DNA of 64,000 bases from Nereocystis luetkeana (lineage: Eukaryota; Sar; Phaeophyceae; Laminariales; Laminariaceae), in assembly GCA_031213475.1 (NCBI GenBank), contig JARUPZ010000027.1, positions 2,541,001 through 2,605,000 of the forward strand, in the 5' to 3' direction. Below are positions 8,001 to 14,000 of this stretch, in pieces. How positions within the stretch are numbered: position 1 is the stretch's first letter; each line of letters begins with the position of its first letter. The translations under genes and the position numbers were made by a program. Below the pieces are notes generated by a model. That model searched no databases. It was not told where the DNA came from and was given only the letters and a program-made list of their open reading frames with translations.

Positions 8001-11000
8001 GCGGCTGCACCAGAACGCCCGCCGCTGCCTCTGCCTCTGTCGAATGGAGGGAGAAAATAAAAGCCAAGCATCCAAGCACCGCGAGTGCGTGGCGCGCGAC
8101 AAGATCAGCTGGGGGAGTGTTCTATTTTGACGGAATGAGCGAGAACATTTTTTCCATTCTACCGAAACGGTATCCATCATTGGCCTCCAACCCTGAGTTC
8201 TCAATCTCCACACAGCATCACACAGCAGTATCACACAGCATGTAATAATACTAATAGTGCCGTTACAGTTGTGCACCATATATCCTCTGTAACACGCTTT
8301 GTCCTTTCGGTCGTTCTCTTCGTGTTACTCGCCGCCGTTCTTCTCCTAGCCGGTAATATATAAAACAATTGACCAGTGAGCGCCCACAAGACCAGCGGAA
8401 AACGCTACACAGCAGCGACTGCAACAGCAGCGACAGCACCACATGAAACCGGAGGTCGTCAACCGATACCAACCAACGTGCGACTGGAGCCTGCCTGTCT
8501 TGTGATCACGGACTGCAACATGGCCATGAGTGAGTACCAGGTCTGTGGTAATAGCAACAGAAATGACAACACCACCTCCACCACCACCACCAACAACAGC
8601 ATTAGGATCTTCAGACACGTTGGTTGCTCTTAACGCGGCCTGCAGCCTTCACCTGCCAAACCCGCGACCACTCCCAGGCTCTGCGCCGCCCCCTCGTCCG
8701 GCGTTGTCCATCAATCTGGCCAGCACGGCGGCGTTAGGGGGAGGCGGCACGCTTGCTCCCATTGCCCGTGCCTCGGCCTCGAGCTCTGCCAGCTTTCTGG
8801 GGCGACATCGAACAGGGGGGGGGGGGGGGGCGTAACAAGCAAGGCCAACGATTGCATCGCGGGGAAATGCGACCAGTTTCAGACACTGTTGTTTGCGGTA
8901 TGACGTTGCAAGCAAGACAAACAAACAAGACAGGAACACATGCGCACCAGAGATAGGGGCCGTGCAACGCAAGCAGTCAGAAGCAAGCCTACGCTAACGG
9001 ACAAAGCCACTCTCGCTCGAGTTACTGACCAGAAAAAATTGCGACCAAGCCCACTTTTTTTTTTTTTTAATCATCACTTTTACTTTCCAGCCTAACTCGT
9101 ACCAGGTAGGAGGTTTTACCCTCGGCGATCTTCTGGACAAACCGCGGTCACAGGTGTCGTCCCTTCTGCCCCCCGGTACGTGCCTCTTTTTTTTTGTCGC
9201 GCATAGGGTTCAGCATTCCCACTGCTCGTCGATTTTCATCAAATATAGCTAACTCACGCTCTCGCGCTTTCCGCTTATCAATTTTTTTGTGGAAGAAAAA
9301 GTCCCCACGAGCATGCACTCGGTGAGACTTGAACCCACGAAATTGGTCATGATAGGCACGCGGACCACCTACCAAGCCACCGGGTTCGCCGATACACTTG
9401 GACAAGAAGGATGCTACTGTAGTCCACAATAACTCCTTGCTCCTCATATACATGCCCATGCCTACAACGAGGGAATTTCCAGGGCTGCATGGGTTGAAAC
9501 TCAAGTACATTACAACCATTTTATTGAACCTGGGGCGAGAATCTCGTACAAACAGCAAGAAATTAAATAAAGCAAGCAAACAGGCAGGCAGGTAAGCAAG
9601 CAAGCAAGCAAGCAAGCAAGCAAGCAAGCAAGCAAGCAAGCAAGCAAGCAAGCAAGCAAGCAAGCAAGCAAGCAAGCAAGCAAGCAAGCAAGCAAGCAAG
9701 CAAGCAAGCAAGCAAGCAAGCAAGCAAGCAAGCAAGCAAGCAAGCAAGCAAGCAAGCAAGCAAGCAAGCAAGCAAGCAAGCAAGCAAGCAAGCAAGCAAG
9801 CAAGCAAGCAAGCAAGCAAGCAAGCAAGCAAGCAAGCAAGCAAGCAAGCAAGCAAGCAAGCAAGCAAGCAAGCAAGCAAGCAAGCAAGCAAGCAAGCAAG
9901 CAAGCAAGCAAGCAAGCAAGCAAGCAAGCAAGCAAGCAAGCAAGCAAGCAAGCAAGCAAGCAAGCAAGCAAGCAAGCAAGCAAGCAAGCAAGCAAGCAAG
10001 CAAGCAAGCAAGCAAGCAAGCAAGCAAGCAAGCAAGCAAGCAAGCAAGCAAGCAAGCAAGCAAGCAAGCAAGCAAGCAAGCAAGCAAGCAAGCAAGCAAG
10101 CAAGCAAGCAAGCAAGCAAGCAAGCAAGCAAGCAAGCAAGCAAGCAAGCAAGCAAGCAAGCAAGCAAGCAAGCAAGCAAGCAAGCAAGCAAGCAAGCAAG
10201 CAAGCAAGCAAGCAAGCAAGCAAGCAAGCAAGCAAGCAAGCAAGCAAGCAAGCAAGCAAGCAAGCAAGCAAGCAAGCAAGCAAGCAAGCAAGCAAGCAAG
10301 CAAGCAAGCAAGCAAGCAAGCAAGCAAGCAAGCAAGCAAGCAAGCAAGCAAGCAAGCAAGCAAGCAAGCAAGCAAGCAAGCAAGCAAGCAAGCAAGCAAG
10401 CAAGCAAGCAAGCAAGCAAGCAAGCAAGCAAGCAAGCAAGCAAGCAAGCAAGCAAGCAAGCAAGCAAGCAAGCAAGCAAGCAAGCAAGCAAGCAAGCAAG
10501 CAAGCAAGCAAGCAAGCAAGCAAGCAAGCAAGCAAGCAAGCAAGCAAGCAAGCAAGCAAGCAAGCAAGCAAGCAAGCAAGCAAGCAAGCAAGCAAGCAAG
10601 CAAGCAAGCAAGCAAGCAAGCAAGCAAGCAAGCAAGCAAGCAAGCAAGCAAGCAAGCAAGCAAGCAAGCAAGCAAGCAAGCAAGCAAGCAAGCAAGCAAG
10701 CAAGCAAGCAAGCAAGCAAGCAAGCAAGCAAGCAAGCAAGCAAGCAAGCAAGCAAGCAAGCAAGCAAGCAAGCAAGCAAGCAAGCAAGCAAGCAAGCAAG
10801 CAAGCAAGCAAGCAAGCAAGCAAGCAAGCAAGCAAGCAAGCAAGCAAGCAAGCAAGCAAGCAAGCAAGCAAGCAAGCAAGCAAGCAAGCAAGCAAGCAAG
10901 CAAGCAAGCAAGCAAGCAAGCAAGCAAGCAAGCAAGCAAGCAAGCAAGCAAGCAAGCAAGCAAGCAAGCAAGCAAGCAAGCAAGCAAGCAAGCAAGCAAG

Positions 11001-14000
11001 CAAGCAAGCAAGCAAGCAAGCAAGCAAGCAAGCAAGCAAGCAAGCAAGCAAGCAAGCAAGCAAGCAAGCAAGCAAGCAAGCAAGCAAGCAAGCAAGCAAG
11101 CAAGCAAGCAAGCAAGCAAGCAAGCAAGCAAGCAAGCAAGCAAGCAAGCAAGCAAGCAAGCAAGCAAGCAAGCAAGCAAGCAAGCAAGCAAGCAAGCAAG
11201 CAAGCAAGCAAGCAAGCAAGCAAGCAAGCAAGCAAGCAAGCAAGCAAGCAAGCAAGCAAGCAAGCAAGCAAGCAAGCAAGCAAGCAAGCAAGCAAGCAAG
11301 CAAGCAAGCAAGCAAGCAAGCAAGCAAGCAAGCAAGCAAGCAAGCAAGCAAGCAAGCAAGCAAGCAAGCAAGCAAGCAAGCAAGCAAGCAAGCAAGCAAG
11401 CAAGCAAGCAAGCAAGCAAGCAAGCAAGCAAGCAAGCAAGCAAGCAAGCAAGCAAGCAAGCAAGCAAGCAAGCAAGCAAGCAAGCAAGCAAGCAAGCAAG
11501 CAAGCAAGCAAGCAAGCAAGCAAGCAAGCAAGCAAGCAAGCAAGCAAGCAAGCAAGCAAGCAAGCAAGCAAGCAAGCAAGCAAGCAAGCAAGCAAGCAAG
11601 CAAGCAAGCAAGCAAGCAAGCAAGCAAGCAAGCAAGCAAGCAAGCAAGCAAGAAAGCAAGCAAGCAAGCAAGCAAGCAAGCAAGCAAGCAAAGCATGCGC
11701 GGGGGAAGCGAAAAGTCCTCGACCTCAGCACAGCCAGCGAGTCCCCGGTACGCTGCGGTAGGTCTCTCACTCCTACAAGCGGGACTGCAGTAGTCCTATC
11801 AGGCTTCGCGTTCATTTTTACCAATCCGCCGGAGGATTGAAAAAAAAATGAAAAAAAAAGCTGCAACCCTGGGCCCTCGCCGGAGCCAAGGCCACGTCCG
11901 CCAGTCAAAGAAACGATTACAAAACACGAGCACCCTATCGCACTATCGCGACACTCGGGATGATGAGGGTGAAGAAGCCCCGTTGCGTACACACCGCAAA
12001 CCCTCACCACCACGGCTCTCGCCGCCGCCGTCGTCTCGCGAGCTCGCGCGAGACGGACAGGTGCCACCAGACAAACAAGAGACACGAGACGAGAAAAAAA
12101 GGAAAATGAAAACCACCCGACGCCTCCTGAGGGGGAATCCTGCTGCATGTCTAAGGAATGAGAGGGCCGCACGCCGAGGATGTCAGCAAGGGCATTCAAC
12201 ATGTGTCGCTCGCTCGCGCGAACGCACGTACTCACGCACGCACCAAATCCGGTCGTGCTCTGTCTGACCTTGCTTGCGCTTGAACTTCTCCCGCCCTCGC
12301 AGCCGTTTCTAGAACGAGCACCTTAGCGGAGAGGCTTTGGAGCATGTTCCGGTAGCGCGCCTGTTCTGCTTCCGGTTTCCCCTTTTCCCTCATCATCTGG
12401 GCGCAAGTAGGCGTGTACACCGACAGCGGAAACGGATATGTTGAGAATACGATGAGAGGGCTCGCCCTCGGCTGGGGCCTACTGTACGTTCTAGGACGAC
12501 CGAATACCCCAATGGTCTTCGACCATTCAAACTCCTGACAGTAGTTGTACAGAAATGTCTCGTTGATTGTTCTACACTCACCAGGAACGTCGCCCAGGCG
12601 AAGGCGCGATCGAGGATGACATGAGGACGACATGAAACACACACAAGGGTTTCGGCGAGGCTAACGTCATCTAGAACGAGGCCGTTTGCATAGGCAAACG
12701 CACGCGGTCGAGATAAAACAAGCGGGCGACAACCGCCGACAGCGCCGATACTGCCGTCCAAAGGTCACCAAGTTCCTTCGCATCGTGCCCTTACTACCAG
12801 GTACAGTTACGGAGAGTAGTGCGGGCCAACTCGGCAAGGCTTCGGCCACGCAACAGTTGCTCTGAGCCTCTTGTACGGGATACCATCCGTCGAGTTTCGG
12901 GGAGACGGGAGAAGGAAAGGGTTGGGCTGTCTACAACTCCGCGTGTTGACCCCTGTTTGCAAGCTTAACCTTGCGCCTTGTGGCTCTGCAAAAAAATCCG
13001 CCACATTAACCCTACGCAGATTGCACCCGAAAACGTGGGTGCAGCTAGAAAGGGCCACGTACGGGAAAAAACGGAAAATTAATCTCTGCGGTCACTCGCC
13101 GTGTCTACCCAAAGACTACCGAACCTTTTCCGCATATTCCATAAAAAATCTCAGAAAATTCTAAGAAACCAGGCGCTACGAACGACGTGCGACAAGCAAC
13201 ATGCTAGAGCGGTGTCTTCGCAGAAGATAAAACACATGCCAGCGCCGAGCAACACACGGCGAAGCACGCGAGGCATAGCGTATGGGAAGTACACCGCAAG
13301 CCCATGGCCACCGCACGGCAGGCATACGGCAGACACACGGGAAGCACACGGGGAGTAGACGGCATGAAACGGCACGCACACGGCAAACACAAGTGAATCA
13401 CGCGTTCAACACATAACAGGCACCTTGAGGAAGCCGTCAACTTTCTCCCGCTTCTGCTTGGTCGTAACCAGTTGCTCGGTGGCGACCTTCACGCGCTCCT
13501 TGAGCAGGATCAACAGTCGCTGCTGCGCCACTACATCGCGAGTTTTCGATGCCTGCGCCTGTCACACGCAAGAGAGCCACAAGAAGGCAAGCCAGATCGA
13601 CGGGGGGGGGTGAGGAAAGGAGGGGTCAGTGACGCGCCATCCACCTAGACAAACGTGAAAACGTTGACAAATACACAATTACAGCGTGGGATTTGAGGGA
13701 AAAGAAAAGCAAACGCCAAAAATTAATTCCCATAGTGGTATGCCTAGCGCCAGGTACTGGTACATCGCAACTAGACCGATACCAACCAACATTGAAAAGG
13801 GACAACCAACCAAGCACACGCGCGGCACCCCTGACGTCATGACCCGCAACGCAGAACCGATTCGCCGCCCCCCCCCCCCCTCCCAAAGCAGGGAGGGTCT
13901 ATTTGTAACCCGCGGGATGTTTCTTAGAACCGAAAACCCGTAGTGGCCTCCAGTACAAATACTCGGGAAACATGTATTATCCGCCCCCGTGCTCAGAATT

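Follow-up and report, generated by a model that had tools for sequence, protein, structure and literature searches.

The genome of the brown alga Nereocystis luetkeana raises a question at one locus: how did about two kilobases of a single tetranucleotide come to lie within what looks like an intron of a gene for an RNA-binding protein, and does the array do anything there? Large and pure intragenic repeat arrays have been studied best at human disease loci. The array of DM2 is one example, as set out in PMC6651174, and outside humans a large intragenic array is described at IIL1 of Arabidopsis in PMC12177298. The CAAG/CUUG unit, in turn, appears to have been little studied as a eukaryotic expansion, and the literature found on it (PMC5118866 and PMC5635059) concerns a bacterial gene. 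The (AAGC)n tracts of bacteria, such as that of autB in Neisseria meningitidis, have an identical unit, but they are unrelated to the present array in length, position and mechanism; they reportedly act as phase-variation switches.

The window, that is, the whole analysed stretch of 64 kb, contains on its forward strand an exact period-4 run of (AAGC)n, or (CAAG)n, which extends without interruption over 2,059 bp (9594–11652). At the right end of the array (11653–11691), a lone substitution puts A where C is expected at 11653, and the pure array then resumes for 38 bp (11654–11691). The first-pass annotation had reported about 523 near-perfect CAAG units with one substitution, and the exact count agrees with it, as 522 CAAG words lie within 9594–11691. 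Tandem Repeats Finder called a slightly longer repeat at 9570–11691 (period 4, 530.5 copies, 99% matches, 0% indels, score 4202), and the part that it adds on the left (9570–9593) is a degenerate array edge including CAGG units, which read CCTG on the transcript strand. The longest other exact repeat of a 1–6 bp unit in the window is 83 bp. Being a head-to-tail repeat of a 1–6 bp unit that far exceeds the usual repeat length (2,059 bp against a longest exact repeat of 66 bp in a 190-kb sample, taken from contig C1 alone), the array is an expanded microsatellite, and chance is no candidate explanation for the run.

On the minus strand, six modelled exons form one open frame spanning the array, which lies inside an intron modelled at 3,472 bp (12268–8797) with GT...AG ends (donor GTCAGACA, acceptor ATGTCGCCCCAG); the exon edges were picked by eye, GTCAGA being preferred as the donor here partly because it preserves the frame. 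In the direction of transcription, the model starts with a large Gly/Pro/Gln-rich exon (16054–19840), whose 5′ limit is provisional and whose end holds most of an RRM. It is followed by the exon that completes the RRM (14906–15121), an exon at 13424–13558, and the exon directly upstream of the array intron (12269–12396), which by eye encodes a coiled-coil-like part of the protein. Directly downstream of the array intron lies the exon at 8653–8796, and then the exon at 7788–8036, with a possible second, divergent RRM. The array occupies 2,098 bp of the modelled intron (60%), at about 580 bp from the donor and about 770–800 bp from the acceptor. The earlier placing of the array in an intron is thus borne out as a model, since the exons on either side share one open frame, and so is the claim that the transcript reads (CUUG)n, because the host gene is modelled on the minus strand. 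As the array sits between the fourth and fifth modelled exons, the earlier label "intron 5" would require one extra upstream exon.

With regard to the host protein, joining the exons raised the Pfam RRM_1 score from 21.2 to 32.8 bits (cut-off 20.7, E 6.6e-08), which upholds the earlier claim of an RNA-binding host gene; judged by this match, its product contains one RRM or more. RRM_1 was the sole Pfam match above cut-off among the pieces of the host protein, Nup35_RRM_2 remaining below it. The protein, which we take from its resemblance to a human protein to be RBM26/27-like, may be compared with the architecture of RBM26/27, namely an RRM, a coiled-coil region, a second RRM and an N-terminal PWI-like fold. 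In the Pfam search, neither the region of the second RRM nor the N-terminal piece of 46 residues gave a match, and two pieces of the protein gave none in NCBIfam, a prokaryote library. Compared with the PDB, the region of the second RRM gave a weak match to SRSF1 (E 0.0008) and seven weaker ones. A further weak PDB match, to AMFR, runs over a low-complexity stretch. A literature search combining RBM26, RBM27, RRM and PWI found no paper.

The first-pass annotation had treated the array as a lone odd locus, and this framing proves incomplete. In the 465-Mb assembly, the 28-base word (CAAG)7 has 25,242 exact matches (10,997 forward and 14,245 reverse), of which this array supplies 510, whereas the control, the same unit read backwards, has 621 (386 forward and 235 reverse); the preference for this unit is judged from a single control unit and a single additional array whose whole sequence was read. 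That second array consists of 186 pure CAAG units on contig C1, starting from 17,905,197. When the array-masked window was compared with pieces of C1, including 5 kb around the C1 array, 65 alignments were obtained, none of them within window positions 7730–21370, and the flanks of the two arrays are therefore unrelated. The same alignments (E up to 1e-10) refute the idea that C1 is foreign DNA, as does the dinucleotide profile, in which the C1 pieces differ from the window by 0.043 and the two window halves differ from each other by 0.049. What is new here is this genome-wide excess of CAAG over the reversed unit, together with the second array.

CAAG arrays in this genome seem to be sparse and long, because the excess of (CAAG)7 goes together with a C1 sample in which none of the 19 evenly spaced 10-kb pieces has a CAAG run of at least 20 bp. 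The first (CAAG)7 place given lies at 17.9 Mb on C1. Assuming that the matches come in positional order, and calculating from this one distance, the forward CAAG arrays probably number fewer than 100 (median 18), and would therefore average more than 100 units each. Long runs are not confined to CAAG, since the 621 matches of the control imply that one other unit or more forms them too.

Could the array be a product of the assembly, its length or purity invented, its interruptions polished away, or its contig misjoined? Consensus callers have difficulty with long pure arrays, and this one is unusually clean. However, the contigs run to megabases (C1 21.9 Mb, C27 9.3 Mb), and a second CAAG array with different flanks and a different length argues against idealisation, a concern of the first-pass annotation that is further weakened by the large excess of CAAG words. 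The accompanying concern over a misjoined contig has likewise lost force, because the exons on both sides of the array, in spite of their by-eye edges, fit one frame in one gene model. An artefact is therefore very unlikely.

Another source to consider is a retroelement, with the array being the tail of, or delivered by, a SINE or LINE with a short-repeat 3′ tail. A dispersed SINE-like repeat of about 340 bp does lie nearby on the minus strand (9055–9391), and four longer copies of it in the window align at 77–89% identity. Nevertheless, its A-rich end faces away from the array and a gap of about 180–200 bp separates the two, so that distance and orientation rule out this repeat, the sole element recognised, as the source of an array tail; the array does not directly follow the 3′ end of this repeat, which is not its parent. 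The other copies in the window carry no CAAG array, since no second run of at least three CAAG or CTTG units occurs there, and the repeat matches nothing in the 5 kb surrounding the C1 array. A retroelement origin is thus extremely improbable. A- and B-box motifs hinted at a tRNA head in the repeat; ARAGORN and Rfam found none, and for this reason it is called only SINE-like.

The explanation that we consider probable is that the array is a recently expanded intronic tetranucleotide microsatellite, one of a genomic set of CAAG arrays, and most likely neutral or mildly costly. A short CAAG-rich seed would have served as the starting point, and replication or repair slippage would have lengthened it before point mutations had time to break it up, so that a pure core remained between degenerate edges. 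Splicing would then discard the array along with the rest of the intron, and it is from this removal that a neutral or mildly costly state, with no dedicated function, would follow. We infer slippage as the process, splicing out and the absence of function in this way, and the recency, which the first-pass annotation had also suggested, from the purity of the array. As to what causes slippage, DNA hairpins find little support, for the predicted folding of (CTTG)20 is equalled or bettered by 191 of 200 shuffles, and that of (CAAG)20 by 5 of 200 (z −1.89).

Alternatively, the array might set off small-RNA-directed or chromatin silencing of its host gene, by analogy with the intronic GAA/TTC expansion of IIL1 in Arabidopsis thaliana Bur-0, for which PMC12177298 describes a growth defect together with silencing. 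Both are large repeat expansions outside animals and both lie in an intron, and a long hairpin RNA may feed Dicer. However, the unit differs: instead of the GAA/TTC triplet of the IIL1/FRDA type, with its other composition, the tetranucleotide CAAG/CTTG is found here, and silencing of this kind is very improbable.

Like the host gene, human CNBP encodes an RNA-binding protein. The CCTG expansion of DM2 lies in intron 1 of CNBP; PMC6651174 describes retention of this intron and gives YGCY as the consensus of MBNL. By the same logic, intronic (CUUG)n RNA might form a long imperfect hairpin, bind proteins, cause retention or foci, and lower or regulate the host gene. Both arrays are intronic tetranucleotide arrays, and both transcript units have the form C-Y-U-G and can pair with themselves through C-G steps; here the unit is CTTG in place of CCTG, which occurs just a few times, at one end of the array. 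A stable imperfect hairpin is predicted for r(CUUG)20 (−31.7 kcal/mol, a value that none of 200 shuffles attained). It comes near that of an r(CUG) repeat of 80 bases (−34.1) and has twice the predicted stability of r(CCUG)20 (−15.6). YGCY words number 523 in the transcript of the array and 24 in the remaining 1,374 bp of the intron. Only the predicted stability and the YGCY count are compatible with the idea of the first-pass annotation that such an array may trap RNA-binding proteins and that the nature of the host gene may matter, and a stable RNA hairpin from the 2-kb intronic array could affect splicing. On the other hand, the r(CUUG) energies hinge on tabulated values for tandem U-U loops, and r(CUUG)20 ranks 13th of 60 tetranucleotide units, twelve others being predicted to be more stable. 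Moreover, the unit of the present array, in contrast to the case of DM2, is in genome-wide excess; the CAAG words elsewhere, one array of them amid unrelated flanks, point to a process acting on DNA rather than to gene-specific selection. A DM2-like RNA effect is therefore rather unlikely.

A bolder proposal, to which we give very little credence, is that a unit-specific process of this lineage makes sparse, pure CAAG arrays, hundreds of units long, in a genome otherwise poor in long short-unit repeats, and that CUUG hairpins from those in introns regulate the host genes. Here the array would then influence the product of its own gene. The family suggested for it, RBM26 and RBM27, is tabulated in PMC5886371 next to Rmn1 of fission yeast, together with the MTREC/PAXT exosome adaptors, and retention of the array intron could thus make nuclear RNA decay limit itself.

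If the genome of N. luetkeana truly has long arrays of one tetranucleotide but few other long short-unit repeats, it would offer a natural system for the causes of unit-specific expansion and, likewise, for how the purity of arrays is kept up and for whether an organism puts up with long self-pairing intronic RNA.

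The (CAAG)n array at 9594–11691 is a real feature of a known kind, namely an expanded microsatellite. Its core (9594–11652) repeats with an exact period of 4 over 2,059 bp and is followed by an A at 11653 where C is expected and by pure repeat again at 11654–11691, that is, a single substitution in 2,098 bp, and the giant, nearly perfect array described in the first-pass annotation is borne out. Tandem Repeats Finder gave the span 9570–11691, in which it counted 530.5 copies without indels, at 99% matches. The left edge (9570–9593) is degenerate and carries CAGG units; in the orientation of the transcript, a few CCTG units therefore lie near the end of the array. 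Among exact repeats of 1–6 bp units in the window, the runner-up reaches only 83 bp.

The host gene was modelled on the minus strand with six exons (19840–16054, 15121–14906, 13558–13424, 12396–12269, 8796–8653 and 8036–7788), the 5′ boundary of exon 1 and the gene end being provisional. GT and AG are present at all internal junctions and the six exons form a single open frame of 1,552 codons; the exon edges were set by eye on splice signals and frame jointly, so the open frame does not prove each edge independently. The junction of exons 1 and 2 has independent support, since joining them completes the RRM: the Pfam RRM_1 score rises from 21.2 bits in the first exon alone to 32.8 bits (E 6.6e-08). 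For exon 8036–7788, there is a weak match to SRSF1 in PDB (E 0.0008) and no match in the Pfam search. The array occupies 2,098 bp of a modelled 3,472-bp intron (12268–8797, minus strand), whose donor, GTCAGA, departs more from the usual form than the remaining donors in the gene model (GTGAGA twice, GTGCCT, GTGAAG and GTGAGC). By this gene model, the array is very probably intronic, as had been claimed, in a gene for an RNA-binding protein, and the misjoined contig that had been feared here is unlikely, since the modelled frame, with its edges set by eye, fits on both flanks of the array. As for the name RBM26/27-like, an RRM is present and the layout presumably resembles that of RBM26/RBM27, but no library searched (including Pfam and PDB) gave this name. 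A table in PMC5886371 lists RBM26 and RBM27, next to Rmn1 of fission yeast, with the MTREC/PAXT exosome adaptors. Elsewhere in the window, open frames at 44074–44772 and 35234–35836 (minus strand) and at 45778–46176 and 51431–51880 (plus strand) look, by eye from their translations, like CNOT4-like RING/zinc-finger pieces and SEC13-like WD repeats.

The cases for comparison are the IIL1 repeat expansion of Arabidopsis thaliana and human DM2 (PMC12177298 and PMC6651174, respectively). The predicted folding energy of r(CUUG)20 is −31.7 kcal/mol, with none of 200 shuffles equally stable, whereas that of the DM2 repeat r(CCUG)20 is −15.6 kcal/mol, with 23 of 200 shuffles equally stable; an 80-base r(CUG) repeat and r(CAAG)20 were predicted at −34.1 and −18.6 kcal/mol. 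Among 60 tetranucleotide units, r(CUUG) ranks 13th in predicted stability, which is thus notable, not extreme. Moreover, the array transcript holds 523 YGCY words against 24 in the remaining 1,374 bp of the intron, YGCY being named as the MBNL consensus in PMC6651174. A DM2-like RNA effect is possible, and the predicted stability and the YGCY richness are compatible with it; a function of the array is probably absent.

With regard to origin, the SINE-like dispersed repeat close by (9055–9391) was rejected as the source, its A-rich end facing away from the array across a gap of about 180–200 bp. No further stretch of at least three CAAG or CTTG units occurs in the window, which means that the remaining SINE-like copies there are without such an array, and the SINE-like repeat has no match in the 5-kb piece around a second CAAG array on C1, another large contig. 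The simplest account would be a CAAG-rich seed lengthened by slippage; DNA folding of the repeat did not show a strong hairpin drive for slippage. One expected substitution in 2,098 bp corresponds to roughly 50,000–480,000 generations at an assumed 1e-9 to 1e-8 per base per generation, which is no firm age, since slippage can renew the core.

The SINE-like repeat itself (about 340 bp) has five longer copies in the window, the one named and those at 20989–21312, 43613–43954, 53931–54233 and 56951–57244, which are 77–89% identical to the first copy, plus several pieces. It had no match in 190 kb sampled from C1, and it is possibly clustered. The window's second longest exact short repeat, a (TAA)n run of about 83–87 bp (54219–54305), lies at the A-rich end of one copy. 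Tandem duplications at 54766–54888 and 46823–46936 (units of 62 and 57 bp) look, by their motifs, like pieces of tRNA-like repeat heads.

In the whole assembly (465,085,209 bp, 1,987 contigs; the window is C27:2541001–2605000), the exact 28-base word (CAAG)7 has 10,997 forward and 14,245 reverse matches, while a single control word, the CAAG unit read backwards, has 386 and 235; one or more other units therefore also form long runs, at about one fortieth of the CAAG level. Since an array of n units yields n−6 matches, CAAG runs of seven or more units comprise no fewer than 25,242 repeat units in all, and the window array accounts for 510 of the 25,242 matches (about 2%). The second array, on C1 from 17,905,197 (2198–2944 of the piece C1:17903000–17908000), has 186 pure units, or 744 bp (747 bp with partial units). 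This piece has dispersed repeats in common with the window outside 7730–21370, which holds the window array, and no alignment to that interval; the shared families indicate that C1 is part of the same genome. The window's last stretch of about 860 bp (63138–64000) also has a 93%-identical copy in a further C1 piece, L016, and is read as a recent dispersed repeat. In a sample of 190 kb from C1 (a single contig), taken as 19 pieces of 10 kb at even intervals, there was no CAAG run of at least 20 bp and no exact repeat of 1–6 bp units above 66 bp.

A literature search for CUUG, CAAG, CTTG or AAGC repeats by name matched only autB of Neisseria meningitidis, and among the matches listed for tetranucleotide CAAG, brown-algal repeats and long microsatellite arrays, no title concerned CAAG arrays of this kind. 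The facts fit sparse, long arrays favouring the CAAG unit, of which one further array was read, and what makes the case more interesting is that such a set apparently exists in a genome with few long short-unit repeats in the part that was sampled.
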